A DNA stretch of 64,000 bases from Oscillatoria sp. SIO1A7. GTDB lineage: Bacteria; Cyanobacteriota; Cyanobacteriia; Cyanobacteriales; Laspinemataceae. The notes beneath the pieces were generated by a model, which was not told where the DNA came from, did not search any database, and saw only the letters and a list, made by a program, of their open reading frames with translations. The translations under genes and the position numbers were made by a program. The stretch is taken from assembly GCA_010672965.1 (NCBI GenBank), contig JAAHFN010000009.1, forward strand, positions 194,682 to 258,681, in the 5' to 3' direction. Below are positions 6,497 to 25,028 of the stretch, piece by piece. Positions within the stretch are counted from its first letter, which is position 1. The number at the start of each line of letters is the position of its first letter.

Positions 6497-6611
6497 TGCG
6501 ATTGCCTCCTTGTTGGAGTTATTTTTTTGCTGTCTTTCTCTAACTATAGCCTAATTTCTGTATTAAATGTTACAAAATGCTTTTTCTTAACAAAAATTCA
6601 CATTCTGGCAG

Positions 6612-6865: not shown

Positions 6866-8068
6866 CTAGTTAATGGGAGTACCGCAGGGGTAGGTTGCCA
6901 CTGGTATTTCTAGAGGGGCATTGCCAAGATTCTTGGGCAAAAACTTATCGGCCTTAGCCAACTCATAGTCGAGCTTGAGTTTGGCGAGCATTTCCTCTCG
7001 GCGATCGTATAAACGCTTTAAAGGACGGGGCGGGCACTGTTTCATCACATAGGCGGTGATGATGGGCAGGGCAATAGTGCTATCGGTATAGCAAACAATA
7101 GTTTTCGGCAAATCGTTGGGCTCTACTTTGCCCCAACTGACTGCTTCGCCAGGAGTGGCACCGGATAGACCTCCGGTATCCGGGCGGGCATCGGTGATTT
7201 GGACGAAGTAATCGTGACCCCGTTCTTCCAAACCCAAAACTTCGTGAATTTGGGGCTGAGTTTGCAGCAGAAAGTTTTTGGGACTGCCGCCGCCGAGGAT
7301 TATCGCTGCGCTCTGACCGGGAATAGTTTTGTCATTGCCAGTTTTGTCATTGCCAGTCGGGTTATTTCGGGCTGCATAGGCGATCGCTGCTGTTTCGTTC
7401 GTGTCGATCGCCGAATCCAGCACCAAATCCGAACCTTCCAGAGCCATCGCTGCCACATTCATGCCAATAGAACTATCTCCAGGGGAAGAAGTATAGATTG
7501 GAACATCACATTCATACGCAGTCGCTAGCAAGCAAGAATGCTGTATGCCCAGTTCTCGTTCTACTTCGCGGATATACTTACCCAGAAGATAGTGAAACTC
7601 AGCGGTTCCCATGCGCTTCTGAAACTCTTTACCTCGCAGAATTTGTCGGATAAAGGCATCAGTCTGCAGCAAAACATCGTACTCAAAAATGATATCGTAA
7701 ATGCGAATCTGCTGCTGCTGTCGCAATCGAACATCATCAGCAAAAGGACTGCCAGCGTAAAGGCTTAAACCCAAACCATAATGTAAGTCGTGATAGAGAT
7801 TTGCCCCAGTGCTGATGATGTAATCTATAAAGCCATTGCGCGCCAATGGTGCTAGAGCCGACACCCCAAATCCTGCTGGGGTCATAGCGCCAGAAAGACT
7901 CAATCCGACTGTAACGCCCTCGCGCATAACTTCCAAACTAAGTAACTGACAAATTTCGCGCAGTCGAGCGGAATTATATGCAGTGAAATAACCGTCAATC
8001 AGATCGGCAATGCTAATGTTGGCCGTGATTGGGGTTGGTGCAATCCTATGGACGAGCTTTTTAGACAT
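6866..8068 (-). CDS. Deoxyhypusine synthase-like protein, probable homospermidine synthase
   Basis: 400 residues, NAD-dependent spermidine aminobutyl-transferase fold. The active-site lysine is K314 in GEAVSWGKV, equivalent to the K329 motif of human deoxyhypusine synthase. Nucleotide-binding motifs [10 protein letters not shown] and STGANLYHD are present. Bacteria lack eIF5A, and characterised bacterial relatives make homospermidine or related polyamines, so that is the likely product. Residues around 236-247 contain a doubled TGNDK, from a 15-bp tandem duplication in the DNA, which looks recent. GGAG lies 8 bases before the ATG at 8068. It appears monocistronic. Confidence 0.85.
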
Positions 8069-8352
8069 TTTTAATACTCCTAAACGCCCTTGCTAGACGG
8101 AAGAAACGCCAATATCAAGTTAGAGCGGCAGTCACAATCAATCCTTCGTTGACCGCGTTGACCTGCTCTGTAAAATGCCAGCTCTATAACGATCGCTCCC
8201 TATTCTAATTACGAATAGAGTTGCGATCGCGCAGCCGCCATAGCAGCAATAAGCGATCGCTCCCGATATCCCTAGCCATTGCTGAAACGGACAAAGCTAG
8301 AATCAATATCGCCTCTGCTGCTATCAAAAAAATGTCAAAAAAATTTGCTCTT

Positions 8353-8482
8353 TTGCGAGCGAGATCGACCTAGGTATGCCGTTACCCCCAAATTGGCCGC
8401 GCATAACTGCGCTCTTTTATAGGAGCAAGTCACTGCATACCTTTCCTAACAGGCCGATCTGCACATACTAGGCGCCTCGCAA
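8353..8482. ncRNA. Candidate structured RNA with nested stems
   Basis: Three complementary blocks nest in order: TTGCGAG 8353-8359 with 8476-8482, AGATCG 8362-8367 with 8455-8460, and AGGTATGC 8372-8379 with 8435-8442. Extra flanking pairs (8360-8361 with 8473-8474, and 8369-8371 with 8451-8453) join them. Bulges fall only on the 3' side, and the apical loop is 55 nt with its own GCGC and GCTC/GAGC pairs. The region has no convincing reading frame. The strand is undetermined. No known family matched from memory. Confidence 0.45.
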
Positions 8483-8635
8483 TCATCTGTACGCGATAGC
8501 CCAGGATTACAATCTCGTTTACGCTTCAATGGTACATCTAAATACCATAAAGGTCGCCAAGGATATTCAACTAAAGGAAAATTTTCCAACGTTTCTATTG
8601 CAACCTGACTTTATTCACAAAAAAATCTACTCAAT

Positions 8636-8860
8636 CTAAACGTCTGCTATGCCTATACGCAAGGCCCTGAGTTTTATTTTTTTCAAACTCACAGACGGTT
8701 TTAGTTGTTGCACCCCGCTTATCTTTAAGATTATAGCCCCAAGAAGAAACCCAGATTGACCTAAAAAAGATTTTGCCTCTTGCAAAAAGATGGCCTCCGC
8801 TAACGTCTCTGGACCACTTCCTATAGATTGAGGAGTATTTAGGACTGCTATATAATCCAT
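8636..8860 (-). CDS. Possible small protein, 74 residues
   Basis: Reading frame beginning MDYIAVLNTPQSIGSGPETLA with a hydrophobic middle (GFLLGAIILKI). It has no clear ribosome-binding site and no recognised family. It lies in a 1.2-kb gap between the deoxyhypusine-synthase-like gene and rplS. Listed because it is the only sizeable frame there; it may be chance. Confidence 0.2.
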   Translation of the reverse strand: MDYIAVLNTPQSIGSGPETLAEAIFLQEAKSFLGQSGFLLGAIILKISGVQQLKPSVSLKKIKLRALRIGIADV

Positions 8861-8946
8861 ATTTCGCTCTGTTACATTTCGCTGTGTTGCAAACTATAAA
8901 TAGAGTAAATGACTAAATCAAAGAGAAAAATTTACATCTAATGCTA

Positions 8947-8975
8947 TTGACTTGAAAGCGTTATAGTGCTATAGT
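8947..8975 (+). promoter_or_regulatory. Probable sigma-70-type promoter for rplS
   Basis: TTGACT at 8947-8952, 17-bp spacer, TATAGT at 8970-8975. It would give a leader of about 280 nt before the rplS start. The leader holds a hairpin GGGTC-CTAC-GACCC (9069-9082) and AGCCCGATC paired with GATCGGGCT (9095-9121). On the minus strand the first hairpin is followed by seven T, so it could also terminate leftward transcripts. Confidence 0.6.
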
Positions 8976-9262
8976 GAAGAGCGGTCTAAAATTAAAGACT
9001 CTAAAAAAACTCCAGAGTTAGCCCGATCGCAGTTAAAGGCTATAATCCATAAATCTGGTAAAAAAAGGGTCCTACGACCCTAAACCTCCACACAGCCCGA
9101 TCCAAAAAGCGATCGGGCTTAATTGTCTGGTCCATTTGAAAAGTAAAATTTGTGGGAGAGCGGTAATTAGCCCGCCCTGCTCTCCTTTCATCGCCGGATT
9201 AGAACTAGCAGAGAAAAAAGCAAGGTTCCCCTCCAGGCAAAGAATTTTAGCGGGAAAGACAA

Positions 9263-9625
9263 ATGAACGCCCAAGAAATTATCCGCTCTATAGAGCAAGA
9301 ACAATATAAGTCGAGCCTCCCGGATATATATGTAGGAGACACCGTTAGAGTCGGCGTCAAAATTCAGGAAGGAGGCAAAGAACGAGTACAGCCTTATGAA
9401 GGAACTGTGATTGCCATGCGCAACGGGGGTATCAACAAGACGATTACCGTTCGCCGCATTTTCCAAGGGGTTGGTGTGGAGAGGGTATTTCTGATCCATT
9501 CCCCTCGGGTACAGAGTATTAAGGTGCTTCGGCGAGGCAAGACTCGTCGAGCTAAGCTATACTATCTCAGAAATCGCGTTGGTAAGGCTACTCGGATCGC
9601 GCAACGGTTCGATCGCTCCCTCTAA
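9263..9625 (+). CDS. rplS: 50S ribosomal protein L19
   Basis: 120 residues, full length. Recognised by [54 protein letters not shown] and [14 protein letters not shown]. It sits at the 30S-50S interface of the ribosome. A long leader with two hairpins precedes it. An inverted repeat GGGGTCC/GGACCCC (about 9633-9670) follows the stop but lacks a T-run. Confidence 0.98.
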
Positions 9626-9819
9626 TTGCTTTATGGGGGTCCAGACAGATAGCCTTCTAGTTTAGGACCCCTAAAAAAAAGAAATTTCTGGGCTGGCGAG
9701 TGGACAGTTGATGTCAGAAGGTGTTATACTCATATACATAAGCCTCGAAAAAACAATCCATACCTACAAAAACCTGGGAAAACTGGGTAAGTATAGGTGA
9801 GGAAAGTTTAAAGAGTTAT

Positions 9820-9954
9820 ATGGCCCGTAAGAAAAACCAATTTGCAGCAGATAACCTGATTGCAATAGGTTACTCAAGGGCAGGCAATACCCCGGATGCT
9901 CCAAACAGAAAGGGTACGATAACAAAAAAACTCCGATTACACTCTTTTTTATAA
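9820..9954 (+). CDS. Possible 44-residue basic peptide upstream of tRNA-Trp
   Basis: ATG at 9820, starting MARKKNQFAADNLIAIGYS and ending RKGTITKKLRLHSFL. GAGGAA lies 14 bases upstream, a little far for a ribosome-binding site. The C-terminal codons overlap the 20-bp palindrome in front of the tRNA-Trp promoter. Highly basic, no recognised family. The rest of the 9626-10007 gap shows no other frame. Confidence 0.35.
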   Translation: MARKKNQFAADNLIAIGYSRAGNTPDAPNRKGTITKKLRLHSFL

Positions 9955-9968
9955 AAAAGAGCTATAAT
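9942..9968 (+). promoter_or_regulatory. tRNA-Trp promoter region with a 20-bp perfect palindrome
   Basis: CTCTTTTTTA at 9942-9951 is followed directly by its exact complement at 9952-9961, then TATAAT at 9963-9968, about 40 bases before the mature tRNA. The palindrome covers the place where a -35 element would be, so it could be a regulator site or the terminator of the short upstream frame. Confidence 0.55.
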
Positions 9969-10007
9969 ATAAGGAGAAAAAGGAATCTTGCGAAAGATTC
10001 AGAGCAT

Positions 10008-10080
10008 GCGCTCTTAGTTCAGTTGGTAGAACGCAGGTCTCCAAAACCTGATGTCGGGGGTTCAAGTCCTCCAGGGCGCG
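10008..10080 (+). tRNA. trnW: tRNA-Trp (anticodon CCA)
   Basis: 73 nt, complete cloverleaf. Acceptor stem GCGCTCT/AGGGCGC (one G-T pair), D-arm with AGTTGGTAGAAC, anticodon stem CAGGT/ACCTG with loop CTCCAAA giving anticodon CCA, T-loop GGTTCAAGTCC. The discriminator is G; CCA is not encoded. It is followed by secE and nusG, the usual bacterial order. Confidence 0.97.
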
Positions 10081-10198
10081 CTGACCCATCCCCACAAATG
10101 CTCTACCCGAAAGTATGTCGGCCGTTGGAATTGGTTCTTATCCAAAACCAGCGACAGAAACAAAAACTTTCGGGTAGAGTTCTTATCTGGGAGGTCAG
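10081..10198 (+). ncRNA. Long hairpin between tRNA-Trp and secE
   Basis: CTGACC 10081-10086 pairs with GGTCAG 10193-10198. CTCTACCCGAAAGT 10101-10114 pairs perfectly with 10166-10179. Inner TGTCG/CGACA and TTGG/CCAA continue the stem. It starts directly after the last tRNA base, so it may be the processing spacer, an attenuator or a leader of secE-nusG. No T-run is present. Confidence 0.5.
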
Positions 10199-10359
10199 GC
10201 GATCGATAGTCATGCTTAATCTATTAGCAAATAGTAGCTAGTTATAATAAGCATGATAAGATTTGAGATGAAGAGTTGGCGATTCTTAACTCCTGACAAG
10301 AAGATTTCACCGCTGACTCGTGACTTGTGAAAATTTGATTTGGGGGAGATGGAGGAATT

Positions 10360-10584
10360 GTGGCCAAAAAAAAAGAAGCACAAGTAGAAGAGACGGCAAC
10401 TGGATTTAACCCGGCCAGCTTTCTGGAGGAAACAAAACAAGAACTGGCCAAGGTGGTTTGGCCTTCAAGACAGCAGGCGATCGGCGAGTCTCTTGCCGTT
10501 CTGTTGATGGTTATTTTAGTTGCAAGTCTAATTTACTTCATAGATAACCTCTTTAGTTGGGCAGCTACAAAGGTGTTCGGATGA
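10360..10584 (+). CDS. secE: Preprotein translocase subunit SecE
   Basis: 74 residues: short cytoplasmic N-terminus, the conserved amphipathic segment FLEETKQELAKVVWPSRQQ, and one transmembrane helix (LAVLLMVILVASLIYFIDNLF). It clamps SecY in the protein-conducting channel of the plasma or thylakoid membrane. The GTG start at 10360 has GGAGG six bases upstream. Its TGA overlaps the nusG ATG (ATGA), so the two are translationally coupled. Confidence 0.95.
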   Translation: MAKKKEAQVEETATGFNPASFLEETKQELAKVVWPSRQQAIGESLAVLLMVILVASLIYFIDNLFSWAATKVFG

Positions 10585-11219
10585 GTTTTGCATCGGACCA
10601 ATACAGCGATTTATCTCAACAGGACGAAACGGAAAATCTACTCGGGCCAGTGGAAACAGAGGCTAAGTGGTACGCCGTGCAGGTGGCCTCTGGTTGCGAA
10701 AAACGAGTGAAAACCAACCTGGAGCAGCGAATCGGCACCCTGGATGTGACAGACCGGATTTTCCAGATCGAGATTCCTCAGGTTGCCGCAGTTAAAATTC
10801 GCAAGGATGGTAAGCGGATGCCTACGGAAGAAAAAGTATTTCCGGGCTATGTGCTTATTCAGATGGTGATGGACGATGAAAGCTGGCAAGTCGTCAAAAA
10901 CACCCCCCATGTGATTAACTTTGTTGGGGCAGAACAAAAACGCCGCTACGGAAAGGGACGCGGTCATGTTAAACCCGTGCCCCTAAGTCACCAGGAAGTC
11001 GAGCGCATCTTTAAGAAACAGGAAGAGGCCGAACCACTGGTCAAAGCGTCCTTGTCGCCGGGAGAAAAAATTGAAGTTGTTTCTGGCCCATTCAACGGCT
11101 TTGACGGCGAAGTGATTGAAGTCAGCCCGGAACGGAGCAAGTTAAAGGCTCTACTCTCGATATTTGGACGGGATACGCCAGTGGAACTGGAATTCGAGCA
11201 AGTTGAAAAGGTTGGCTAG
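10581..11219 (+). CDS. nusG: Transcription termination/antitermination protein NusG
   Basis: 212 residues from the ATG at 10581, which overlaps the secE stop by 4 bp. NGN domain: WYAVQVASGCEKRVKTNLEQR and FPGYVLIQMVMDDESW. KOW domain: SLSPGEKIEVVSGPFNGFDGEVIE. It binds RNA polymerase to limit pausing and couples transcription with translation. A start 24 bases upstream is in frame but would lie inside secE. Next in line is rplK, after a 493-bp gap. Confidence 0.96.
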   Translation: MSFASDQYSDLSQQDETENLLGPVETEAKWYAVQVASGCEKRVKTNLEQRIGTLDVTDRIFQIEIPQVAAVKIRKDGKRMPTEEKVFPGYVLIQMVMDDESWQVVKNTPHVINFVGAEQKRRYGKGRGHVKPVPLSHQEVERIFKKQEEAEPLVKASLSPGEKIEVVSGPFNGFDGEVIEVSPERSKLKALLSIFGRDTPVELEFEQVEKVG

Positions 11220-11712
11220 TTGGTGCCGATCGCCCCTTCCTTGCCAGATGATTTCGCCCGCGCCGGAGCTAAAAGCAAGCAAAATAGGGCATGGGGCAGC
11301 TAAATCATCTGGCAATCCCCGATTTAAAAAGATGGCAATATTGTCTCCAAGCAAGAAAATAAGGGTATGGTTGGAGAAGAATCTGGAAATTCTCGCCCTG
11401 GCGGAGGCTTTTGTGGCCGAAACCAAACTGTGAGATAATTTACTAAGCCTTGTAGGGAAGCGAGTGGGAGCTGATTTTAGCGAAACGGAATGTCCCCGAT
11501 CGTGAAAAGGCTAAAACGGGAAATTTTTACGAGTCAGGACTTACGCATTACCTCTATATGTGTAGGGGCGATTCGCGAATAGCCCCTACATTTAGGGTTA
11601 GATTTCCAACTCTGCGTAAGTCCTACGAGTGATTTTTCCGAGTAATTATTTCCGATAAAAAGAAAAAACTCCGCCTTTTGAGATATGGAGTCTTGAGGGA
11701 AAACAGAGATAC
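11220..11712. repeat. nusG-rplK spacer: 14-bp inverted repeat and one MITE
   Basis: TTGCCAGATGATTT at 11241-11254 is exactly complementary to 11302-11315, with a 47-nt loop. At 11536-11624 lies an AGGACTTACGCA-ended MITE flanked by the 5-bp direct repeat CGAGT (11530-11534 and 11626-11630). No gene is supported in this gap. Confidence 0.8.
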
Positions 11713-12138
11713 ATGGCAAAAAAAGTTGTTGCAGCGATTAAACTGGCGATTCAGGCTGGTAAAGCGAACCCGGCACCCCCAATAGGACCGGCCTTGGGTC
11801 AGCATGGCGTGAATATTATGATGTTCTGTAAAGAATATAACGCCAGAACTGCCGACCAAGCAGGTCTAGTGGTGCCAGTGGAAATTACGGTTTTTGAGGA
11901 TCGCAGTTTTACATTTATTCTCAAAACACCCCCTGCTTCGGTGTTGATTCGCAAGGCGGCAGGCATACCGAAGGGTTCGGGAGAGCCAAACCGAAACAAG
12001 GTTGGGAGTATTACCCGGGTTCAACTGGAGGATATTGCCAAAACGAAGATGCCGGATCTCAATGCCAATGATATTGAGGCGGCAATGCGAATTGTAGAAG
12101 GGACTGCTCGGAATATGGGCGTGGCGATCGCAGATTAG
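11713..12138 (+). CDS. rplK: 50S ribosomal protein L11
   Basis: 141 residues, full length: [34 protein letters not shown] and the C-terminal rRNA-binding domain [39 protein letters not shown]. It forms the GTPase-associated region with L10/L12 and 23S rRNA. First gene of the L11-L1 pair, 88 bp ahead of rplA. Confidence 0.98.
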
Positions 12139-12226
12139 GCGATCGAGCAAAATTAAGGATGGTTGAGAAAGGCAAACCAAAAATGGGGGAGAGATGGATT
12201 CTCGCTAGCAACCCCAGGAGAGACAG

Positions 12227-12943
12227 ATGGCAAGAAAAATATCTAAAAGACTGCAGGAACTGAAGAAAAAGGTCGAGGAACGGGCTTACGAACCGACAGA
12301 GGCCCTTAAGCTGCTCAAGGAAACCGCCACAGCGAAGTTCCCGGAATCAGCAGAGGCTCATATCCGTTTGGGAATCGATCCGAAATATACCGACCAACAG
12401 TTGCGGACAACTGTATCGCTGCCAAAAGGTACGGGGCAAACAGTGCGAGTGGCTGTCATAGCCCAAGGGGAAAAGGTACAAGAAGCTAATGCCGCAGGGG
12501 CCGATGTAGTAGGCTCGGAGGATCTGATTAACGAAATCCAGCAAGGTAATATGGATTTTGATAAGCTGATTGCTACGCCGGATATGATGCCGAAGGTAGC
12601 CAAATTAGGACGGCTACTAGGACCGCGAGGTTTGATGCCATCCCCCAAAGGCGGTACGGTAACATTTGATTTGGAACAGGCGATCGCCGAGTTCAAAGGT
12701 GGTAAACTAGAATTTCGGGCAGACCGCACCGGCATTGTCCATATTCTATTTGGCAAAGCTTCTTTCTCAGAGGAAGATTTGCTAACTAATCTGAAGGCCC
12801 TCCAAGAATGCGTCGATCGCAACCGGCCTTCTGGTGCTAAAGGTCGCTATTGGCGCAGCGTCTATATCTCTGCAACTATGGGGCCTTCAATCGAAGTTGA
12901 TATCAATGCTCTGCGGGATATGAAGGTTGCCGATGCAGCCTAA
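12227..12943 (+). CDS. rplA: 50S ribosomal protein L1
   Basis: 238 residues, full length: two-domain L1 with the signatures [14 protein letters not shown] and LLGPRGLMP, and C-terminal [20 protein letters not shown]. It builds the mobile L1 stalk that guides deacylated tRNA from the E-site. L1 commonly represses the rplKA message; no mRNA target was identified here. GGAGAGACAG precedes the ATG. Confidence 0.98.
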
Positions 12944-12950
12944 ATAAAGG

Positions 12951-13137
12951 GAGTAGGGAGTAGGGTGTAGGGTGTAGGGTGTAGGGTGTGGAGTCTAGGG
13001 TAATTTTGAGGGTTAAATTTTGAGGGTTAAATTTTAAGCTTTGAGCTTGTGTTTAATTTAAAACTTAACACCCAAAACTTAAAACTCTTCAATTCTCAAT
13101 TACCTACACCCTAAACCCTACACCCTACTCCCTAGTT
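12951..13137. repeat. Inverted pair of GTAGGGT heptamer arrays between rplA and rplJ
   Basis: GGGAGTAGGGTGTAGGG at the left faces its complement CCTACACCC...CTACTCCCT at about 13103-13136, separated by TTTGAGGG/TTAAATTTTG-type repeats. Transcribed from rplA it would form a large stem-loop ahead of the L10 leader. Confidence 0.8.
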
Positions 13138-13159
13138 TTTAGCCTAAACCAATTAAATA

Positions 13160-13215
13160 AACGCAGCCAAAGACAGCAGGCGCTGATTGCTTAATATCCT
13201 GCCGAGGTTGTCCCC
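13160..13215 (+). promoter_or_regulatory. Ribosomal protein L10 leader
   Basis: The element reads AGCCAAAGACAGCAGG, then GCTTAATATCCTGCCGAGG, with AGCAGG pairing to CCTGC. This arrangement matches the widespread L10 leader, bound by the L10(L12)4 complex to repress rplJL. It lies about 180 nt before rplJ; GCTGACC heptamers now separate it from the downstream terminator. Confidence 0.7.
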
Positions 13216-13351
13216 CAATGTCAGAAAAAGCCAATATGTTGCAAAAAAGCTCTCAGCAATAAGCTTTTCTTTCTTAGCTGACCGCTGACCGCTGACCGCT
13301 GACTGCTTCGTAAGGGCTTTATTCAAATTGACATTAGGAGGGGCGCGACCC

Positions 13352-13376
13352 CGGCTTTCGCCGGGGTTTTTGGTTT
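13352..13376 (+). terminator. Intrinsic terminator/attenuator before rplJ
   Basis: Stem CCCCGGC with loop TTTC and GCCGGGG, followed directly by TTTTT, ending about 20 bases before the rplJ start. With the L10 leader upstream it is a natural attenuation switch; read-through would be needed for rplJL expression from upstream promoters. Confidence 0.8.
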
Positions 13377-13396
13377 TTAAAAGGAGGTGAAAAGGT

Positions 13397-13939
13397 GTGC
13401 CAAGGACATTAGAAGACAAAGAGGCTATTGTAGCCGACCTAAAACAGAATCTCAGCGAGTCGCAGATGACCTTTGTTATTGACTTCAAAGGGCTATCTGT
13501 GGCTGAGATTACCGATTTGCGCAACCGACTGCGAGAATCAAATGCCATTTGTAAGGTCACCAAAAACACCCTTATGAAACGGGCTGTTGAGGGTGACGAA
13601 AACTGGCAAGCAATGGGAGAGTTGCTTAAAGACTCTTCAGCATTTATCTTCCTCAAAGACGATATCGGCGGTGGAATCAAGGCTTATCAAGAATTCCAAA
13701 AAGCCACCAAAAAAACCGAACTTCGCGGTGGCTTATTGGAAGGTAAGCTACTGACGGAAGCCGATGTCAAGGCTATTGGAGAGCTGCCATCGAAGGAACA
13801 ACTCATGGGTCAAATTGCTGGTGCGATTAATTCGCTGGCGACGAAGATTGCCCTGGGTATCAAAGAAGTTCCCTCGTCTATTGCTCGCGGTCTGAAGGCT
13901 CATGCAGAACCGGAGAGCAAGGAAGAAAGCGAGGCTTAG
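13397..13939 (+). CDS. rplJ: 50S ribosomal protein L10
   Basis: 180 residues: [51 protein letters not shown]. The C-terminal helices bind L7/L12 dimers. The GTG start at 13397 is fixed by AAGGAGGTGA (13381-13390). It is preceded by the L10 leader and an intrinsic terminator, pointing to autogenous control. Confidence 0.97.
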
Positions 13940-14056
13940 ATTGCCAAAGCTGGAGCAACTCGCACTTAGATCGGCGAATTGCATATAGGCGACTTATAGA
14001 CCAAAGCCCGATATTGGGCAAAATCATTCACTTGAGAATTTTGATAGGAGTTAGAT

Positions 14057-14449
14057 ATGTCTGCTGCAACTGACGAAATTTTGGAAAAACTAAAAGTCCT
14101 CAGCCTGCTAGAAGCATCTGAGTTGGTCACGCAAATTGAAGAAACTTTCGGCGTTAGCGCCGCAGCACCTGTGGGTGGCATGGTGATAGCTGGACCAGCA
14201 GCGGCTGGCCCTGCTGCCGAAGAAGTAGAAGAGAAAACGGAGTTTGACGTGATTCTCGACGAAGTACCCTCCGATAAGAAGATTCCGATTCTGAAGGTGG
14301 TGCGGACAATGACTGGCCTCGGTCTGAAGGAAGCGAAAGATCTGGTGGAATCGGCACCCAAGGCAATTAAAGAAGCTGTTGCAAAAGATGCTGCAGAGGA
14401 AGCCAAGAAGCTGCTAGAAGATGCTGGAGCGAAGGTGAGTATTAAGTAA
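14057..14449 (+). CDS. rplL: 50S ribosomal protein L7/L12
   Basis: 130 residues: N-terminal dimerisation domain [27 protein letters not shown], Ala/Pro-rich hinge, C-terminal factor-binding domain [38 protein letters not shown]. It recruits translational GTPases. TAGGAG precedes the ATG. An inverted pair of GGGCATT and AGTGAAA repeat runs follows (14455-14590) and separates it from the convergent dacB gene. Confidence 0.98.
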
Positions 14450-14454
14450 TTGAC

Positions 14455-14590
14455 ATTGGGAATTGGGCATGGGGCATTGGGCATGGCGCATTGGGAGTGA
14501 AAAGTGAAAAGTGAAGAGTGAAAAGTTAAGAAAGCCAATCACTATTCACTATTCACTTTCCCAATGCCCAATGCCCCATGCCCCATGCCC
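14455..14590. repeat. Inverted GGGCATT / AGTGAAA repeat block
   Basis: TTGGGCATGGGGCATT and AGTGAAAAGTGAA on the left are answered by TTCACTATTCACTTT and CCCAATGCCC on the right, forming a potential long stem between the convergent genes rplL and dacB. Confidence 0.75.
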
Positions 14591-15988
14591 TTAATTCGAT
14601 TCCTTTTTGACAATTTCATTGCCAGAGGTTCTGCCTTTTTGCCAAGAGGTAGGTTTTAATTTGGCCGGTGGGGTGCTGACGGTTCCCCACTGGCTTAATA
14701 GTCTGGTTACAAGGGCATCTTGTTCGTCGCGAAATTGAGTAGCTCCTCTGCCTGAGTTGATAATGGCAAGGCAGACTTGGCCGTGTTTCTGATTGGGTAT
14801 TACTCCGGCTAATGAGCTAACATTATTTAGGGTTCCGGTTTTGATAACCGATAATTTAAGGGCTTGACGATTTTTTAAGACTCCTAAGTCTTGGCCGACA
14901 ATAGCAACTACGTCAGCAAGGGTCATATTATAAGGAGTAACGACGCGATCGAGGGCAAGAAACATCCCGCAAGCAGCGCGGGGAGAGATGCGATTTGCTT
15001 CGCCCAAGCCAGAACCGTTGATTAGTTGAATTTCCGATCGCGGAATGCCTGCTGCGTCTGCTGCTATTTGGGCGACGGCATTGGCACCGCCTACAGAATC
15101 GGCGAGCATCTGAGCCATGTAGTTGTTGCTATACATGTTCATCAATTTGACGAGTTCGCCGAGGGGTTTGGAATTATGGCGCACCAGAGGTTGCAGGGCG
15201 ACTGGAGCTGAGGGTATGACTTTTACTCCATTGTCAAATATCACCTGGGGTCGAGGGGTATCGGGGGGCAAGGTTTGATATTGGGTTTCTGCTTCGACTG
15301 GCCAAATGCGACTATTCATCCCCTGCTGGAGTAGAGTCCCGGATGCGAGGGGGTCGAATTCAAAGTTCATATAAAATTTGCCAACTATAACGAGATTGCC
15401 AGCGACTCGTTTGATGCCCAGTTGGTTTAAAGTGTTGCCCAAGGCGATCGCTTCTTCCCAGACAAATAGCGGGTCTTCTCCTCCTTGGACGATTAAGTCT
15501 CCTTTTAATACGCCATTTTCAATTAGTCCTGTTATCCCAATGTTAGTTACAAATTGGTGGGTGGGACTAAAGGTTTTTAGGGCTGCCAATGTCGTAGCAA
15601 CTTTAGTCACGGAAGCGGCGGGTAAAGGAACTGTACCTTGATGATTGGCCAAAAGACGATCGGGGGATTGAATCCAGACTCCTTGCCTGTTTTGGGCAAA
15701 TCCTCTAACTGCGATATTTTTGATGTAGTCCTGAATTTGGCTATTAGTCTTTGGCTCTGGATTGCCTGGAGGTGCAGTCAAGGGCTGAGAAGGTTTGCTC
15801 GGGGTGGGGGCGGGGGCGTTTTCGACTGAGAAATCGACCTCAGAACGCTGGTTTTGCGCTGACGATTCGGAAGTATTGCGATCGGTCGTATCGCTTCTAT
15901 TTGCTAAAGGATCGTTAGGAGAACATCCCCCGACCAGTGCTAGCAGGGTCAAGGATAGCAGAGCAGTTAATAATTGTTTTTTTGGCAT
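14591..15988 (-). CDS. dacB: D-alanyl-D-alanine carboxypeptidase, S13/PBP4 type, lipoprotein
   Basis: 465 residues. A lipobox (LALVGGC, C22) suggests membrane anchoring after signal peptidase II. A Ser/Thr/Pro-rich linker runs to about residue 80. The catalytic domain carries the three penicillin-binding motifs: S126-V-T-K129, S287-N-N289 and K383-T-G385. It removes or hydrolyses D-Ala cross-links in periplasmic peptidoglycan. The spacing fits peptidase family S13, though the insert between SxxK and SxN is shorter than in E. coli DacB. It appears monocistronic. Confidence 0.88.
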   Translation of the reverse strand: MPKKQLLTALLSLTLLALVGGCSPNDPLANRSDTTDRNTSESSAQNQRSEVDFSVENAPAPTPSKPSQPLTAPPGNPEPKTNSQIQDYIKNIAVRGFAQNRQGVWIQSPDRLLANHQGTVPLPAASVTKVATTLAALKTFSPTHQFVTNIGITGLIENGVLKGDLIVQGGEDPLFVWEEAIALGNTLNQLGIKRVAGNLVIVGKFYMNFEFDPLASGTLLQQGMNSRIWPVEAETQYQTLPPDTPRPQVIFDNGVKVIPSAPVALQPLVRHNSKPLGELVKLMNMYSNNYMAQMLADSVGGANAVAQIAADAAGIPRSEIQLINGSGLGEANRISPRAACGMFLALDRVVTPYNMTLADVVAIVGQDLGVLKNRQALKLSVIKTGTLNNVSSLAGVIPNQKHGQVCLAIINSGRGATQFRDEQDALVTRLLSQWGTVSTPPAKLKPTSWQKGRTSGNEIVKKESN

Positions 15989-16704: not shown

Positions 16705-17262
16705 CTATTGATATGAGCCGTAAAGCCAGTTACCCGGGGCATTAGGATCGTCACTCGTATGAAATTCCTTGCTTCGCTCTATATATTCCTCAAGGGATAG
16801 AACATCGTCTCCATCTTCATCTAAACGCACGAAAGCCTCTTCAGCAACCTTTTCGCCAAGGCCAAGTGCTGTGAAATATTGTTTGTATTCAGCCAAACTA
16901 ATTTGGCCATTTCCATCAGCATCCAAACAAGTAAATATTGCGGTTACTTTGGCAGCATGACTTTCTTGAAGATTCGCTGAATTGGCAAAATTTTCAATCG
17001 ATTTATTGGCAACAGTCAAATACTCCTCTAGTTCCACTTTTCCATCACCATTTATATCTGCTGGCAGCCAGAAATCATTCCAAATAGCTACATATTTAAT
17101 CATAATGTTATCAAATTCTGACGTTCCCGTTTTTATGCCCCGCAGCGCAGAAATGTTCTGAGCGCATAGTTCTAGATCTGCTTGCTCTACACAACCATTC
17201 TTATTGACATCGTAAACCTGAAAGTTTTTGGTGTGTTTTTTTCTCAAAAGCTCGCTCAACAT
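16705..17262 (-). CDS. Calcium-binding protein with four EF-hands
   Basis: 185 residues. Four canonical loops: D18-VNKNGCVEQAD, D69-INGDGKVELEE, D114-ADGNGQISLAE, D148-EDGDDVLSLEE. The second and third are complete. The first ends in Asp instead of Glu at position 12. The fourth has Asp at position 6 where Gly is usual. The layout resembles calerythrin and sarcoplasmic calcium-binding proteins. No signal peptide, so a cytosolic calcium buffer or sensor is likely. A short spacer separates it from the XRE gene. Confidence 0.88.
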   Translation of the reverse strand: MLSELLRKKHTKNFQVYDVNKNGCVEQADLELCAQNISALRGIKTGTSEFDNIMIKYVAIWNDFWLPADINGDGKVELEEYLTVANKSIENFANSANLQESHAAKVTAIFTCLDADGNGQISLAEYKQYFTALGLGEKVAEEAFVRLDEDGDDVLSLEEYIERSKEFHTSDDPNAPGNWLYGSYQ

Positions 17263-18390: not shown

Positions 18391-19971
18391 GTGAGTTCGC
18401 CTAGAAGTTGGATTTGCGACGGGGTGCCTAAGGATGGGAAGGAATATCCAAATTCTTCCGGTCCTCACGCACCACAGGAAAATTACGGTCCAGACTGCGT
18501 AATCTGTGGCTTGCCGAAGGAGGCAATGCAGCCAGGTAAAACTAAGGTCTCTGGGAACGATGTCGGCAAACCGCCTCTGGTGCCGATTGCGGTTGCGATC
18601 GCCCTGATGCTCCTCGTCGGCGGTGGGGGTTGGTGGTATGTAAGCCAGCAAAATAAGAATGAAACAGATGGCAATTCCACTGTAGGAATATCGGTCAATC
18701 CTCTGGCGATAGTTAGCGATACTGCAGTTAATGCGAGGCTGATTAGTCAGGGGGAGAAAATTTTGCTGACCGGAGGCCGCAACTTTCAGGAAAAAACTGC
18801 GGCAGCGGCGCTTTTTGCCCAAGGGGATTGGAATGGAGCGATTCGAGAATATCAGCTAGCAGCGAACCGCGACCCGAACGACCCGGAGGCAAAAATTTAT
18901 CTCAACAATGCTAAGGCTAAAGAATCTGGCAATCCGGTGGGAATGGCGGTGGTAGCGCCGATTACTCCAAGAGTCAACGAAGCTAAAGAAGTTCTACGGG
19001 GGGTGGCTCAATATCAAGAGGAGTATAACCGCCAATTGCCCAATCGCTTATTAGAAGTAGTGGTGGTTAATGAAGAGCAAGCAAGTATTGCCGATTCTCT
19101 GGCGCAAGATATTATTAATGCTCCCCTAAATGTGCTGGGGGTGCTGGGACATGGAGTTAGCAACGATAGCCGTCAGGCTATGAGAAGCTACGAACAAAAT
19201 AACTTGGCGGTATTGTCGCCTCTGAATACTGCGATCGCTAACTCTAATGTGAAAACAATTTCTATCGACAAAACCAAAGTCTTGTTGAGGAGCTATCAGC
19301 AACAAGTGGGAGAAACTCTAGCGAATTACGCCGCGCAAACTTATTCTCCCGCTGCAGCGGCGGTTTTTTACAATTCCGATATTGGCTACAGCCAAGAGAT
19401 GAAAGATGAGTTTGCTAAAGCTCTGTCCCAAAAGGGGGGAAAAATAGTTAAGGAAATTGACGTTACTGTTTCTGGCTTTGAAGCAGCATCGGCTATTCGA
19501 GAAGCTCGCCAAGCGGGAGCCAATGTCGCTTATTTGGCTTTAACTCGCAATAAGGTAGATATCGCGATCGCTCTGGCCAAAGCCAATAATAATCAATTAA
19601 AACTTCTCGGTGCGGACGAACTCTACAATCCGACAATTTTAGTTAAAGGAGGTGAGGACATTGACGGATTGGTTTTGGCCGTACCTTGGCGATGGAGAAA
19701 AGACGATCCTTTTGCTCGCGATGCCACCGATCTCTGGCAAGGACGAGTAAGCTGGCGCACTGCAACTACTTATGATGCTACTCAGGCATTGGTTGATGCG
19801 ATTTCCCAGCACCCGGGCGATCGCGCGGCGATTTCCCAAGCCCTCAACCAAGGCATTACCCTTAAGAAAACAGCTACGGAATTTAATATTTTTAACGATA
19901 TTCCTTTAGTCAAGGCCGTGTCGGGAACGGCAGGTCCGTCTGGTTCCAAACATCAATTCGATGCAATTTGA
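18391..19971 (+). CDS. Membrane-anchored ABC-type ligand-binding (receptor) protein with N-terminal Cys/His motif
   Basis: 526 residues. Residues 1-46 carry C9, H26, C36 and C39 (CVICG), a possible small zinc site on the cytoplasmic side. One transmembrane helix spans about 62-83. A TPR-like segment (ALFAQGDWNGAIREYQLAANRDPNDPEAKIYL) follows. The rest is a type I periplasmic-binding domain as in amino-acid receptors: VGMAVVAPITP, LNVLGVLGHGVSNDSRQAM, AAAAVFYNSDIGYSQEMKDEF. A tethered sensor rather than a transporter subunit is likely, since no permease or ATPase is nearby. GTG start. Followed by the vWA gene. Confidence 0.78.
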   Translation: MSSPRSWICDGVPKDGKEYPNSSGPHAPQENYGPDCVICGLPKEAMQPGKTKVSGNDVGKPPLVPIAVAIALMLLVGGGGWWYVSQQNKNETDGNSTVGISVNPLAIVSDTAVNARLISQGEKILLTGGRNFQEKTAAAALFAQGDWNGAIREYQLAANRDPNDPEAKIYLNNAKAKESGNPVGMAVVAPITPRVNEAKEVLRGVAQYQEEYNRQLPNRLLEVVVVNEEQASIADSLAQDIINAPLNVLGVLGHGVSNDSRQAMRSYEQNNLAVLSPLNTAIANSNVKTISIDKTKVLLRSYQQQVGETLANYAAQTYSPAAAAVFYNSDIGYSQEMKDEFAKALSQKGGKIVKEIDVTVSGFEAASAIREARQAGANVAYLALTRNKVDIAIALAKANNNQLKLLGADELYNPTILVKGGEDIDGLVLAVPWRWRKDDPFARDATDLWQGRVSWRTATTYDATQALVDAISQHPGDRAAISQALNQGITLKKTATEFNIFNDIPLVKAVSGTAGPSGSKHQFDAI

Positions 19972-20155
19972 AAATTGGGCATGGGGCGCCACACCTGCCC
20001 ATTGGGCATTGGGCATTGGGACGCGAAGAGGTCAAAAGTCAAAGGTGAAGGGTAAAGAAAAAACTATTCACTATTCACTATGCCCAATACTCCCATTCCC
20101 CATGCCCCCATTCCCCCATGCCCAATGCCCCATGCCCCATGCCCAATTAAAAATT
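19972..20155. repeat. Inverted GGGCATT heptamer block
   Basis: GGGCATTGGGCATTGGG on the left and CCCCATGCCCCATGCCC on the right flank an AGTCAAAGGTGAAGGG core. It lies between the receptor and vWA genes and is often read as an artificial N-terminal extension of the latter. Confidence 0.8.
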
Positions 20156-21028
20156 ATGCTTTCTCGTCGCCCATTGTGGCTTTATCCCCTATTTCAAATT
20201 CCCTCAATTCTGATGGCGCTGTGCTTGTTATTCGCCGCCTTATTCTTATTATTGGGTTTGGGGCGACCCCAAGTGGCTGTGGCGATCGCCATTGATTTCA
20301 GCAGCAGCACCTCTGGCACCGTCAGAAATCAAGAAATCCAAGCCGTCAGCTCTTATCTGGGGGCAAATAAAGCTCTAGAAGAACAAAATCAAATTCGCGT
20401 TTTTGGCTTTGCTAGCCAAGTGCAAGCTTTAACGAATTCTTTTACGGCGGATAGCCAGCAAGTAGAAGGAGAGTTGAAGCAGTCGTTGCAAGCGCCGAAT
20501 CTAGAACAACAGCTCGGCGGCGGCACTAATCTGAATTTGGCGATTCAGGAGGGAACCGCCGCCCTGAGCGGTATCGAGGAAAAGCGCTGTCGGGAATTGC
20601 TGGTGGTTACTGACGGTATCGCCGATGTCAATAAAAGCTCAATCGAAGAGGCGATCGCTCGCAAAGTAAAAATTAACGCTGTGGTTTTAGGCGGTAAAGA
20701 TTCTCGGGACTTGCGCCGCGCCACCGACCGCACCAACGGCATCTATCTATCCGACGAAGCCAGCAATCTAGAAGCCTTGTTCGTCGATACATTTTTTACT
20801 CGCTTTAATAGTAATAGACGATGGTTGATTTTCTGGCTCGGCGCTGCCTTCATCTTTTTTATGTGGATGCTAACTTTGCCGTTCGATCGCTGGCTCTTTC
20901 AAGGTTTAATCGGATTAGATATAACTCTGGCAGGGCAACTCGCTCTAGGCAATGCTTTATTCTGGACTGTACTAACGGCGATCGTTGTTTGGCAATTATT
21001 TGGCTTGCCATTTGCAGGGATGTGTTAA
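20156..21028 (+). CDS. vWA domain membrane protein
   Basis: 290 residues from the ATG at 20156. A frame open 195 bases further upstream is made only of GGGCATT-type repeats and is rejected. One transmembrane helix (about 15-36), then a von Willebrand A domain with the MIDAS residues D47-F-S-S-S51, Thr in GGGTNLNLAI and Asp in VVTDGIADVN. Two further hydrophobic helices form the C-terminus. The metal site is complete, so it should bind a protein ligand in a cation-dependent way. It lies between a ligand-binding receptor and a tubulin-like protein; no MoxR ATPase is present. Confidence 0.82.
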   Translation: MLSRRPLWLYPLFQIPSILMALCLLFAALFLLLGLGRPQVAVAIAIDFSSSTSGTVRNQEIQAVSSYLGANKALEEQNQIRVFGFASQVQALTNSFTADSQQVEGELKQSLQAPNLEQQLGGGTNLNLAIQEGTAALSGIEEKRCRELLVVTDGIADVNKSSIEEAIARKVKINAVVLGGKDSRDLRRATDRTNGIYLSDEASNLEALFVDTFFTRFNSNRRWLIFWLGAAFIFFMWMLTLPFDRWLFQGLIGLDITLAGQLALGNALFWTVLTAIVVWQLFGLPFAGMC

Positions 21029-21029
21029 T

Positions 21030-21100
21030 TTTTGGGCATTGGGCATTGGGCATTGGGCATTGGGCATAGCGCATGGGGCATTGGGCATTGGGCATAGATT
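21030..21100. repeat. GGGCATT heptamer run
   Basis: About eight GGGCATT units with interruptions, between the vWA gene and the four-helix-bundle gene. Confidence 0.85.
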
Positions 21101-21148
21101 ATTGTAGCCAGTTGGTTAATTGCAGTTTAGTATTTAGGAGTTCGGGGT

Positions 21149-21520
21149 GTGAGTGCAGCGAGACCAGACTTTGAGAATTTGGATGTTTATAAATTAGCAG
21201 AAAATTTGGCAAATGAAATTTTGTATCTTGTTAAAGAGTGGGATTATTTTACCAAGGATACAATCGGCAAACAATTGGTCAGGTCAGCCGATAGTATCTG
21301 CGTTAATATTGCCGAAGGTAGAGGTAGGTATAACGATGCAGACAATAAGCGCTTTGTCAAAATAGCCAGAGGCTCTTTATATGAAACAATCAGTTGGTTG
21401 AGACTAGCGTATAGGAGACAGCTAATAACCAGCGAACAAGTAGCTCGGTTCAAGCCTATCGTTGACGAATTAACTCCAAAACTCAGCGCTTATCTAAAAA
21501 GCATAGGCCACAGAAAATAG
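21149..21520 (+). CDS. Four-helix-bundle protein (23S rRNA intervening-sequence type)
   Basis: 123 residues: FENLDVYKLAENLANEILYLV, GKQLVRSADSICVNIAEGRGR, FVKIARGSLYETISWLRLA. These are the signatures of the S23/Avd four-helix-bundle family, found in rRNA intervening sequences, beside diversity-generating retroelements and as free-standing genes. No reverse transcriptase or template repeat is nearby. The GTG start has AGGAGTTCGGGGT in front. It interrupts the vWA/tubulin-like gene order and is edged by heptamer repeats on both sides, so it may be a later insertion. Confidence 0.85.
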   Translation: MSAARPDFENLDVYKLAENLANEILYLVKEWDYFTKDTIGKQLVRSADSICVNIAEGRGRYNDADNKRFVKIARGSLYETISWLRLAYRRQLITSEQVARFKPIVDELTPKLSAYLKSIGHRK

Positions 21521-21707
21521 GTATAGGGCATGGGCATGGGGCCTGGGGCATGGAGGAAAGTTAATAGTGAAGAGTGAATAGTGAATAATTAGCTTTCTTA
21601 ACTTTTCACTATTCACTCTTAACTTTTAACTCTAAGATCCACCCAATGCCCAATGCCCAATGCCCAATGCCCAATGCCCAATGCCCAATTATAAGGATAT
21701 AAAATAA
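21521..21707. repeat. Inverted heptamer repeats before the tubulin-like gene
   Basis: GGGCATG/GGGCATGG and AGTGAAGAGTGAATAG on the left, TTCACTATTCACT and (CCCAATG)n on the right. The block ends 17 bp before the tubulin-like start codon. Confidence 0.85.
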
Positions 21708-24700
21708 ATGGCAATAAATGTTGAAGAAAAAACTATGGTGCCCACCGTATTGGTGGGAGTGGGCGGAACCGGCCATGAAATCTTGTCGCGGGTGCGGCGA
21801 TTGGTGGAGGAAAGCTACGGGAGTTTGAAAAAATTCCCCATCATCAGTTTTCTAATTGTCGATACGGACAAAGAATATAAGGTGACCAACCCCGGAGCTG
21901 CCGGTTCTCCATTTAAAGATGACGAGAAAATCTGGGCAAGCGTGAGCGGTCGCCAGGTTAGAGACCGGCTATCTAATATGGAAAACTATCCTTGGATTCA
22001 AAGCTGGTTTCCGCCGGAGCTGAGCCGAAACTTGAATGCGATTGAAGCCGGGGCGGGTCAGATTCGCGGTTACGGGCGATTCGCTTATTTCTGTAACTAC
22101 CACAATATCCAAAATGCTTTTAACCGAGCGGCGGATAAGGTGAAAGGCCAGGAAAACTATATGCTGGATAACTACGATATTAAAGTAGCGGCCGGCGGCC
22201 TAAACTTGTTTGTGGTCGGTTCTTTGTCGGGAGGCACCGGCAGCGGGATGCTAATCGATATCGGCTATTGCGCTCGCCATTGGCTGACAGGACAAGCGAG
22301 TCCTTTGATAACGGCGATCGCTCCTATGCCAGAGGCGTTTTCGGGAATTAATGTTGGCGATCGCGTCCTGGCCAACGGCTACGCGGCTATGATGGAGCTA
22401 AGCTATTTCTCTGACTACCGCACGGAATATGTCGGCCAATACAGCAGCAGCTTAGTAGATGAAGTCCGCAGCAAATTGCCGCCCTTTGACTTCACCTATC
22501 TAGTTGGCACCAAAAACGGCGAAAGCGAGTTTAGTCTCGACCAAATTCGGGAACTGATTGCCCAAAATATCTTTTTAGATTTAACCTCTGACTTTGCGCC
22601 GCACAAGCGCTCGATTCGCGACAACATTAAAGGAGCTTGGGCGCAAGCAGACCCGGGGGGGCGCAGCTATCCGAAAAACTTTATGAGCTTCGGGCTTTCC
22701 AGTATAGAAATTCCCATTGCCCAGATTCGCACTGCTTTAAACAATCGTCTGGCAGCGGATTTTCTGGCTTGGTGGCTGAACGAATCGGCGTTATTGCCGC
22801 CGAATGTATTCGAGCTAGTGCAAAACGATCTTCTCAAGCGGATGCGGCTGAGCGATCGCGAATTGATCGAGGGCTTGACTTCCGCCGGGGATAAGTCCTA
22901 TATCGCCACAATTTCCGCTTGGGTCAATAGCATCCGCCATGAAATCGCTACGGACAATTTGCTGCAATCCACCCAGCAAGGGGTTTTGGGAGTCGCCGGC
23001 TCCGAGAAAGGCAAGATTCTCCAATTTGTAGATAGCTACTTAGCGCCGAAAGTCGAGGAATATTCGAGCAGCCACCTGCGGGAGCTAAGCCCAGACGAGC
23101 GATTGCATGGAGATTTTTTGCAGAAAATGTATGACAATCGCAATCGAATCGTGCGCGAAGGGCGAAAGGCTCTAGAAGAGGAGTTTTATCGCTCGATAGA
23201 AGATCGAACTCGGGGGCCGAAGTTTGCCGATGCTTTTATTAGCAATTTGCGGCAGATTTTCGAGAATGCAGCGGAGAAGTTTCGCCGGGAAGCGGAGAAG
23301 GTCTGGCAGCCGAATGAGGAAAAACGGCGCAAGGAATATGAAGAAGCGCTGCAAGATATTTCTCATTTTAAGGATAAGTTTGGTCTGACCAAGCAGGCGA
23401 AGATGGAAGAATATGCCGAAAAAGCGCTGGCTGGATTGGAAGGAAGCGCGATCGCTACCATTCAGCGCAAAGCTCGGTTTCTGGGATTGGATGTAATCCA
23501 GCGCCTGCAAGAACATTTAGACGAACTGGAGCGGCGCTTTACTCGCTTGACTCTGAAATTGCGGCAATGGCAAGATAATTTCCAACAACAAGCGGACGCC
23601 CAAGCGGATAGTGCCGATGCTTTGCTCGTTAATGGGATTAAACTATACGAGCGCCAAGGACTCAACGACCTCTATTACGACTTAATCGAGCAATTCGCTG
23701 GAGCGAGCGAGGGCAATAAGAGCCTTTACGATTCTGGCTTAGACGGGATTTGCAGCACTTTGTCCGACGAGGTTTTAGCCGAGGCCAGTCCTTTGTGGAA
23801 GCAAAACCGGGCGGCGGACGAGGTGATGCGGCTGTTCGATTTGCCGCAGTTGGCCGAAGTGCAGGATGAAGATTTTCAGGAAATAGTTGCTAATAAAACG
23901 CGGCGGTTTATTGATGAAGCGCCCAATACCAGTCGCTTGAAACGGGAGCTGGCGGCCTGCGATCGCGTTTTCAAACTTTTCAACAATGACGAAGGCGAAA
24001 TCCGCAGTCAAGTCGGCATCGCTTACAGCAAATCCAAACCGCTGATTTTGCTTTCCGATGCGGTGATGAAAGGACGAGATGCTGGCTTTACTCCGGCCAC
24101 CAATACTAAGGTTGCTGTAGTTGGCGGTCGCAATGCTACGGATCCGGCGGCGATGAAATTGTTGCCTTTGTTAGAAGAACGTGTTGGCAGTCGGGATGCT
24201 ATTACTCCTCTAGGTCAGGCGGAGCGGCACCGGATTGTTTTCGTGCAAGAAACTGGCGGTTTTTCCCTGCGTTCTATTGATGGGATGCGGGAGCTGCGGC
24301 AATCCTATCAAGACTGGAAAGGGCAAACTATTGAGGCCAAGCGATCGCAACTGCGCGGAGAAAGCAAAGACCCGCCGATTCCCGTTCACATTCAGAAAGA
24401 ACCGCCATTTTGGGATATTTTTCCCGAAAACCCAGAAATTTATAAGCTAGTGGTGCAAGGGCGAGCCTTGGAAGTTTTGCGGGTGGATGAAAATCGGCGC
24501 ACCAAGGAAAGCGTGATTCGCTATACTCGACCAACGGCGATCGGTCGCGAGGATGTGGATATTGCCTCAAGCTGGGAGGAAGCGGTGCAAGTCTTGGAGG
24601 TAAAGGCTTGCCGGGACGATCGCGAAGAAATTCAGCGCCAAGTTACGGCGAAACTGGATGCAGCAGAAACTAACTCGCAGAAACAGCAGCTCTACAATCG

Positions 24701-25028
24701 CTTTATGGGTTATCTGGCAGAACGCCAGAACGAGTTAGAAAAAGAAGGGGGCAAAGATAGTCTGATTTATAAGCGCGAGGCGAAGATAGTTCGGGATATT
24801 ATTGAAGCCTATAAGTTGCAAGGAACTGGGGAAGTAACTCCCGTTGAGGAAGCTGAACCGGCGATCGATCCTTCTCGGGCACCGACTCAGGTTGCCAAGC
24901 CGCCCCTGGAACCAGTAGATAGCCCGTCCCCTGCAGCCCATGTTTTTTGCACGAACTGCGGCACGAAGAATCCAGCTAATTCTAATTTCTGCTACAAATG
25001 CGGAACTAAATTGAATAAGCTGAGTTAA
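21708..25028 (+). CDS. Tubulin-like GTPase-fold protein (Tubulin_2) with C-terminal zinc ribbon
   Basis: 1106 residues. An N-terminal nucleotide-binding motif GVGGTGHE (17-24) and the tubulin/FtsZ signature-like loop GGTGSG (175-180, SLSGGTGSGMLIDI) place it in the Tubulin_2 family (PF13809). A long central helical region, probably coiled coil, covers about 430-620 (KFRREAEKVWQPNEEKRRKEYEE). The extreme C-terminus is a zinc ribbon: C1081, C1084, C1095, C1098. AAGGAT precedes the ATG. The family is large and much longer than FtsZ, and its biological role is not established to my knowledge. It follows a receptor-like and a vWA membrane protein, so a membrane-linked assembly is plausible. Confidence 0.82.
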   Translation: MAINVEEKTMVPTVLVGVGGTGHEILSRVRRLVEESYGSLKKFPIISFLIVDTDKEYKVTNPGAAGSPFKDDEKIWASVSGRQVRDRLSNMENYPWIQSWFPPELSRNLNAIEAGAGQIRGYGRFAYFCNYHNIQNAFNRAADKVKGQENYMLDNYDIKVAAGGLNLFVVGSLSGGTGSGMLIDIGYCARHWLTGQASPLITAIAPMPEAFSGINVGDRVLANGYAAMMELSYFSDYRTEYVGQYSSSLVDEVRSKLPPFDFTYLVGTKNGESEFSLDQIRELIAQNIFLDLTSDFAPHKRSIRDNIKGAWAQADPGGRSYPKNFMSFGLSSIEIPIAQIRTALNNRLAADFLAWWLNESALLPPNVFELVQNDLLKRMRLSDRELIEGLTSAGDKSYIATISAWVNSIRHEIATDNLLQSTQQGVLGVAGSEKGKILQFVDSYLAPKVEEYSSSHLRELSPDERLHGDFLQKMYDNRNRIVREGRKALEEEFYRSIEDRTRGPKFADAFISNLRQIFENAAEKFRREAEKVWQPNEEKRRKEYEEALQDISHFKDKFGLTKQAKMEEYAEKALAGLEGSAIATIQRKARFLGLDVIQRLQEHLDELERRFTRLTLKLRQWQDNFQQQADAQADSADALLVNGIKLYERQGLNDLYYDLIEQFAGASEGNKSLYDSGLDGICSTLSDEVLAEASPLWKQNRAADEVMRLFDLPQLAEVQDEDFQEIVANKTRRFIDEAPNTSRLKRELAACDRVFKLFNNDEGEIRSQVGIAYSKSKPLILLSDAVMKGRDAGFTPATNTKVAVVGGRNATDPAAMKLLPLLEERVGSRDAITPLGQAERHRIVFVQETGGFSLRSIDGMRELRQSYQDWKGQTIEAKRSQLRGESKDPPIPVHIQKEPPFWDIFPENPEIYKLVVQGRALEVLRVDENRRTKESVIRYTRPTAIGREDVDIASSWEEAVQVLEVKACRDDREEIQRQVTAKLDAAETNSQKQQLYNRFMGYLAERQNELEKEGGKDSLIYKREAKIVRDIIEAYKLQGTGEVTPVEEAEPAIDPSRAPTQVAKPPLEPVDSPSPAAHVFCTNCGTKNPANSNFCYKCGTKLNKLS

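Follow-up and report, generated by a model that had tools for sequence, protein, structure and literature searches.

In a 64,000-nucleotide stretch of the genome of Oscillatoria sp. SIO1A7 (contig JAAHFN010000009.1, positions 194,682 to 258,681; hereafter the window), three genes encode a single-pass membrane receptor with a putatively cytoplasmic zinc finger (18391..19971), a membrane protein with a von Willebrand factor A (vWA) domain (20156..21028) and a tubulin-like protein of the FtsZl1 family (Tubulin_2 in Pfam; 21708..25028). All three lie on the + strand; the original prediction, made from the letters of this DNA, had placed them on one strand. We are highly confident that these genes are associated across genomes. 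The finger of the receptor tracks the tubulin even when the two genes are far apart, which suggests that a signal from outside the cell may be wired to a tubulin-like protein.

Co-occurrence of the receptor, the vWA protein and the tubulin

We defined clade A as the tubulins scoring more than 900 bits against the window tubulin (over 1000 bits in the larger genome draw below), which gave 36 loci including the window (37 are listed, L073 being a duplicate of L041). A zinc-finger receptor is encoded upstream on the same strand in 20 of the 36, and 19 have the order receptor-vWA-tubulin; at L056 the place of the vWA gene is taken by a transposase-like gene (recognised by eye). We then searched cyanobacterial genomes with a zinc-finger model of 47 positions, in draws of 194 and 386 genomes, the larger containing the smaller. 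The first draw yielded 12 matches, i.e. 11 of the 11 clade-A genomes against one (G056) of the 183 others. In the second, the module was present in 24/24 clade-A genomes against 1/362 others, again G056. These counts bear out the linkage beyond close relatives on which the original prediction depended, and the 24 genomes with both finger and clade-A tubulin span 15 genera. We treated three genomes with weaker tubulins (G064, G085 and G456) as being without clade A. The G064 and G085 tubulins share a branch next to it (support 82/86), and G456 was placed there by genus and score only.

The association does not require proximity. Twelve of the 24 genomes, namely seven of genus g22, G111 and four of family f23, have no finger close to the tubulin gene. 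Finger and tubulin are far apart on one contig in G089, G095, G179, G462 and G527, and on different contigs in the other seven, for which closeness is not strictly excluded because of that separation. Genera g2, g9, g11 and g16 each include genomes with both finger and tubulin and others with neither. When 15 clade-A genomes were examined through named records, the finger was retrieved in 13 and the vWA protein in 13; the misses were both proteins in G201 (1.8 Mb), the finger in G203 and the vWA protein in G206. The vWA model was applied to these 15 genomes and to the 194-genome draw, where it matched 9 of the 11 clade-A genomes against one marginal match (G086, 8e-4) in the 183 others. The G086 match has other genes around it, and we did not count it as a member.

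By fold, the receptor best matches substrate-binding proteins of ATP-binding cassette (ABC) transporters. It could be the remnant of an amino-acid uptake system whose gene adjoins those of the vWA protein and the tubulin by chance. We regard this as highly improbable, since it is already contradicted by the co-occurrence: the finger tracks the tubulin in all 24 clade-A genomes of the larger draw, linked or not, and a chance neighbourhood is rejected by the same counts. ABC substrate-binding proteins share the LivJ-type fold of the receptor, but the latter has a transmembrane anchor and a cytoplasmic zinc finger instead of being secreted. Our Pfam scan covered seven window proteins (the receptor, the vWA protein, the tubulin and four neighbours), and among them we found no transporter gene, whether ABC permease or ATPase. 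Nor did the seven include a MoxR ATPase or any other AAA+ match, which sets the window apart from MoxR-vWA systems, where the vWA protein has an AAA+ partner. The original prediction had noted the absence of both ABC subunits and MoxR, and the scan agrees.

The gene set had also been called possibly undescribed, which is too strong because the link between tubulin and vWA protein was published in 2010. Makarova and Koonin (PMC2875224) introduced the name FtsZl1, connected the family with vWA proteins and suggested a role in membrane remodelling. In the parts of that paper available to us, a vWA gene is clustered in the majority of FtsZl1 loci, and a kinase or a diverged P-loop GTPase is frequent nearby without being defining. 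Thermosynechococcus elongatus BP-1 is among the cyanobacteria listed there with an FtsZl1 gene. A referee remarked that a branched-chain binding protein of ABC type is encoded next to the gene of Arthrospira, to which the authors answered that such genes occur only in one or several close relatives. Their system and ours are alike in the Tubulin_2 protein, the central coiled coil, the membrane vWA partner and the cyanobacterial members. They differ in that the available text sets the binding proteins aside, whereas here the finger accompanies the tubulin in those 24 genomes of 15 genera, and in that neither a kinase nor a P-loop GTPase gene is among the seven scanned proteins of the window. 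Our literature search found no paper linking the receptor, or the ZorAB pair described below, to FtsZl1 and no experimental role for FtsZl1, in a search for which most subscription papers were outside reach and the 2010 supplement may list the receptor. As far as these searches show, the new part is the coupling to the receptor. FtsZl1, in print for that long, ranks among the most diverged tubulin families, and the coupling gives one of its clades a near-constant partner, a testable input (the LivJ-type domain) and a module of some 45 residues as a candidate for the contact.

Some loci deserve a separate mention. The tubulin of L094, from the lineage next to clade A, is flanked by two proteins (6435-7568 and 11104-12417): on one side a protein with a zinc ribbon (by eye), a transmembrane segment and PBP_like_2, on the other a Peripla_BP_6 protein. 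In Crocosphaera watsonii WH 8501 (L054:9992-13311) the tubulin gene is spread over three frames and the receptor, at 438 residues, is short, so that the set looks decayed. A betaproteobacterial locus (L057:9941-18260) has an FtsZl1 with a C-terminal GYF_2, then two proteins with zinc-ribbon-like ends (TPR and Sel1); a further neighbour resembles a binding protein by eye and has no Pfam match. In the order around this betaproteobacterium, Tubulin_2 occurs in 2 of 200 genomes, too few for a test of the link to the receptor outside cyanobacteria.

Modules of the three proteins

The receptor has 526 residues and a GTG start, and was delineated by Pfam, a fold search of its model and the family alignment. 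It comprises a zinc-finger module (residues 7-41, 18409..18513, from the alignment rows), one transmembrane segment (residues 57-82, 18559..18636, from hydrophobicity, with the N terminus predicted inside by flanking charges), a TPR-like part with weak Pfam matches and a LivJ-like Peripla_BP_6 domain (residues 204-487, 19000..19851, from Pfam at E 4.7e-17 and fold matches). The predicted single-pass receptor-type protein is thereby confirmed, with its Cys/His motif ahead of the sole hydrophobic segment. In the finger, W7, C9, G11, H26, N31, C36, C39 and G40 are invariant in 15 rows, and the same positions except G40 in a 22-row alignment. The N terminus resembles W-x-C ... C ... N ... C-x2-C, which we take to be the pattern of RanBP2-type zinc fingers, with His replacing one Cys; no RanBP2-type Pfam match was obtained at E up to 0.1. 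The receptor model (predicted local distance difference test, pLDDT, 83.3) retrieved LivJ/LivK-type amino-acid binding proteins. Its D409 aligns with E226 of LivK, presumably a ligand contact, and an acidic residue at position 409 is nearly invariant in the family.

What stays constant is the zinc finger, carried on exchangeable periplasmic parts. Finger and transmembrane segment are most often joined to a LivJ-type domain. L037, L055 and L056 have PBP_like_2, of the PstS type, in its place, and a second protein of the source genome (L134:8587-9411) has PsbP_2; two finger proteins of G187 have coiled-coil-like periplasmic sequence without a clear Pfam match. Seven paralogues of the LivJ-type half are encoded in the source genome, and among the five that we scanned, three are fusions to Ser/Thr kinases (L175, L177 and L179) and two have the binding domain without a kinase. 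The periplasmic half of these kinases is 32-34% identical to that of the window receptor, and they have a kinase where the receptor has its finger. The periplasmic half of the receptor, a type that kinases carry as well, therefore belongs to signalling architectures, with the zinc finger in the position of the output.

The vWA protein (290 residues, placed by Pfam and the start positions of relatives) was assigned the ATG at 20156 as its start, the position at which most of its relatives start. For that reason we rejected the ATG at 19961, with which the listed open reading frame opens; the first 65 codons from there cross a repeat tract. Three hydrophobic segments and an intact metal-ion-dependent adhesion site (MIDAS; D47/S49/S51/T124/D153) had been predicted, and both are there. 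C145 and the C-terminal C290 are kept in 23 of 23 vWA proteins, which would suit a periplasmic disulfide.

The pairing of a tubulin with a membrane vWA protein recalls the double-GTPase systems of Kaur et al. 2020 (PMC7159879), in which, as far as the text available to us goes, a tubulin-coiled-coil protein accompanies an extracellular membrane vWA protein in Firmicutes and Actinobacteria. By analogy, the window genes could form a conflict or immune system akin to these GAP1-N2 systems, with the tubulin and an extracellular vWA protein at the membrane as the common feature. This appears improbable to us: PADLOC gave no match for the receptor, the vWA protein or the tubulin, the set adjoins ribosomal protein genes (recognised by eye), and the seven scanned proteins include no P-loop GTPase match, GAP1 itself not having been searched.

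The tubulin has 1106 residues, as predicted, and was identified by Pfam, model and fold alignment: Tubulin_2 reaches 366.7 and 362.9 bits against a curated cut-off of 27 (Pfam E 2.6e-108). The domain covers residues 14-352 (21747..22763, from Pfam and alignment), with GGTG at 19-22 and GGTGSG at 175-180, the loop G175-G180 being invariant in 43 rows. It is the only Tubulin_2 gene of the source genome. The model built from 43 rows (pLDDT 85.1, predicted template modelling score 0.71) aligned with CetZ (3zid_B) at Z 24.9 and a root-mean-square deviation of 4.0, with 309 aligned residues of 342 over model range 10-886. Foldseek alone returned CetZ2 on top at E 2.3e-5. The profile searched by sequence against the PDB gave only weak, mostly helical matches, which is not evidence against the fold. 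The model thus predicts a two-domain tubulin fold with the GTP-binding motifs kept, whose loss would have spoken against the original prediction.

Like CetZ, tubulin and FtsZ, the modelled protein has the tubulin fold, but its second domain appears to be split. S7-H9 would lie at 325-357, followed by a mostly helical insertion of some 430 residues (about 360-790, 22785..24077, from model secondary structure and fold alignment) with long helices at 469-498, 503-555 and 562-638. S8-S10 would follow at 797-852, within the remainder of the second domain (about residues 797-886, 24096..24365, from model and fold alignment); all these boundaries are approximate. A conserved stretch near residues 848-907 might offer an interface to the receptor. 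The 2010 text available to us reports that T6-H7 was not confidently identified and that no similarity was seen in the C-terminal domain, so the predicted fold would now place that domain. Helix 277-292 is followed by D291 (25 of 26 clade-A rows) and an Asp or Glu at 295 (24 of 26), which may be the T7 counterpart. The exceptions at 295 are the tandem tubulins of G187 (L089:6615-13537), with Gly in one copy and Pro in the other.

The protein ends in a variable module, a further difference from CetZ, tubulin and FtsZ. In the window it is a zinc ribbon (Zn_Ribbon_1, residues 1080-1102, 24945..25013, from Pfam), as the original prediction had noted. In the 35 full-length clade-A tubulins we counted a zinc ribbon in 22 (motif search), a SHOCT-like end in 6 and a GYF_2-like end in 7 (by eye). 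Pfam checks placed SHOCT over its cut-off in L050 and just below it in L059, and recognised GYF_2 in L062. The proposal that both zinc sites serve as contact points does not hold as a general rule, since 13 of the 35 relatives lack the ribbon. All seven with a GYF_2-like end keep the receptor finger, which speaks against a zinc-to-zinc contact.

Proposed control of the tubulin from the membrane

The best reading of these data is that the membrane receptor anchors or gates the tubulin-like GTPase; the vWA protein would be a periplasmic partner. Its basis, namely the gene association, the module swaps and a predicted tubulin fold that retains the GTP motifs, is shown by computation. To the more specific proposition that the control is ligand-gated, by an inner-membrane receptor with a vWA partner, we give slightly less than an even chance. 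In this mechanism, the LivJ-type domain would bind a small solute in the periplasm, an amino acid being the first guess. The change induced by the solute would pass through the single transmembrane segment to the cytoplasmic zinc finger, which may touch FtsZl1, or a factor bound to it, and thereby anchor or switch the GTPase at the membrane. The vWA protein, if periplasmic, would act on the receptor as a partner or clamp, and a divalent cation at the MIDAS would gate it. FtsZl1 would hydrolyse GTP and form polymers, and might serve either envelope signalling or, as suggested in 2010, the remodelling of membranes. Gating of the tubulin by the receptor, if it occurs, would mean that in bacteria the chemistry outside the cell is linked directly to a tubulin-like protein.

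Several observations weigh against this reading. The Fisher test on the co-occurrence gives p 2.7e-37, a value that is overstated because the genomes are related and not independent. Two draft clade-A genomes, G201 and G203, have no zinc-finger match, and G056 has the receptor without a clade-A tubulin. No vWA protein was retrieved from the clade-A genomes G095, G097, G201 and G206. The MIDAS is complete in only 15 of 23 vWA proteins; six of the remaining eight lack the Thr, L037 is degenerate and L053 is cut by the locus edge. The charge bias for the topology of the vWA protein is weak, and favours an inside N terminus with the vWA domain outside. The zinc ribbon of the tubulin is likewise restricted to a part of clade A (22/35).

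Finally, the periplasmic parts of some receptors are not obvious ligand binders. The swaps for PsbP-type and coiled-coil domains would fit a constitutive membrane-remodelling machine, in which the receptor is a mere anchor with a ligand-free periplasmic scaffold and the membrane is shaped by the tubulin, as suggested for FtsZl1 in 2010. We consider this unlikely. The receptors beside a tubulin are LivJ-type in 17 of 20 cases and PstS-type in the other three, the LivJ-type half is also found on kinases, and the acidic position 409, aligned with that of LivK and presumed to touch the ligand, is nearly invariant. Opinion was already divided in 2010: remodelling is favoured by the authors in the available text of PMC2875224, and one referee preferred transport or signalling.

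The other FtsZl1 branch and the surroundings of the gene set

In the tree, the 26 clade-A rows fall on one side of a branch (support 100/99). The other FtsZl1 branch has a ZorA-like neighbour in 28 loci, a ZorB-like OmpA protein in 25 and a vWA-like protein in 28, in sets that overlap without being identical. In the representative L064 the cluster comprises vWA-like, tubulin, ZorA-like and ZorB-like genes (7768-14720). PADLOC matched ZorA at 2.4e-13 and ZorB at 2.8e-11, and the NCBIfam ZorA match (8e-12) is below its cut-off; the vWA-like protein was named by eye and has no Pfam match. Asp-Leu-Met opens the membrane segment of the ZorB-like protein in 25/25. A broader and rather doubtful scheme would cover both branches: a ligand-gated cytoskeleton with one cytoplasmic zinc-finger plug through which interchangeable periplasmic sensors would control a split tubulin-fold GTPase at the inner membrane, and a cation-gated vWA outer clamp; in the other clade, a tubulin of this kind would instead be coupled to a Zorya-like ion motor. 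The source genome itself has a ZorA-like protein (L133:9056-10564; G000:C46:105091-106488), although its sole Tubulin_2 belongs to clade A.

Between the vWA and tubulin genes of the window lies a gene for a four-helix-bundle protein (21149..21520, +; Pfam 23S_rRNA_IVP, E 6.2e-29). It has no relative among the neighbouring open reading frames of other tubulin loci, and is unrelated to the conserved set and outside it. Repeat tracts of the GGGCATT type flank this gene, and an EF-hand protein is encoded near the gene set on the - strand (16705-17262).

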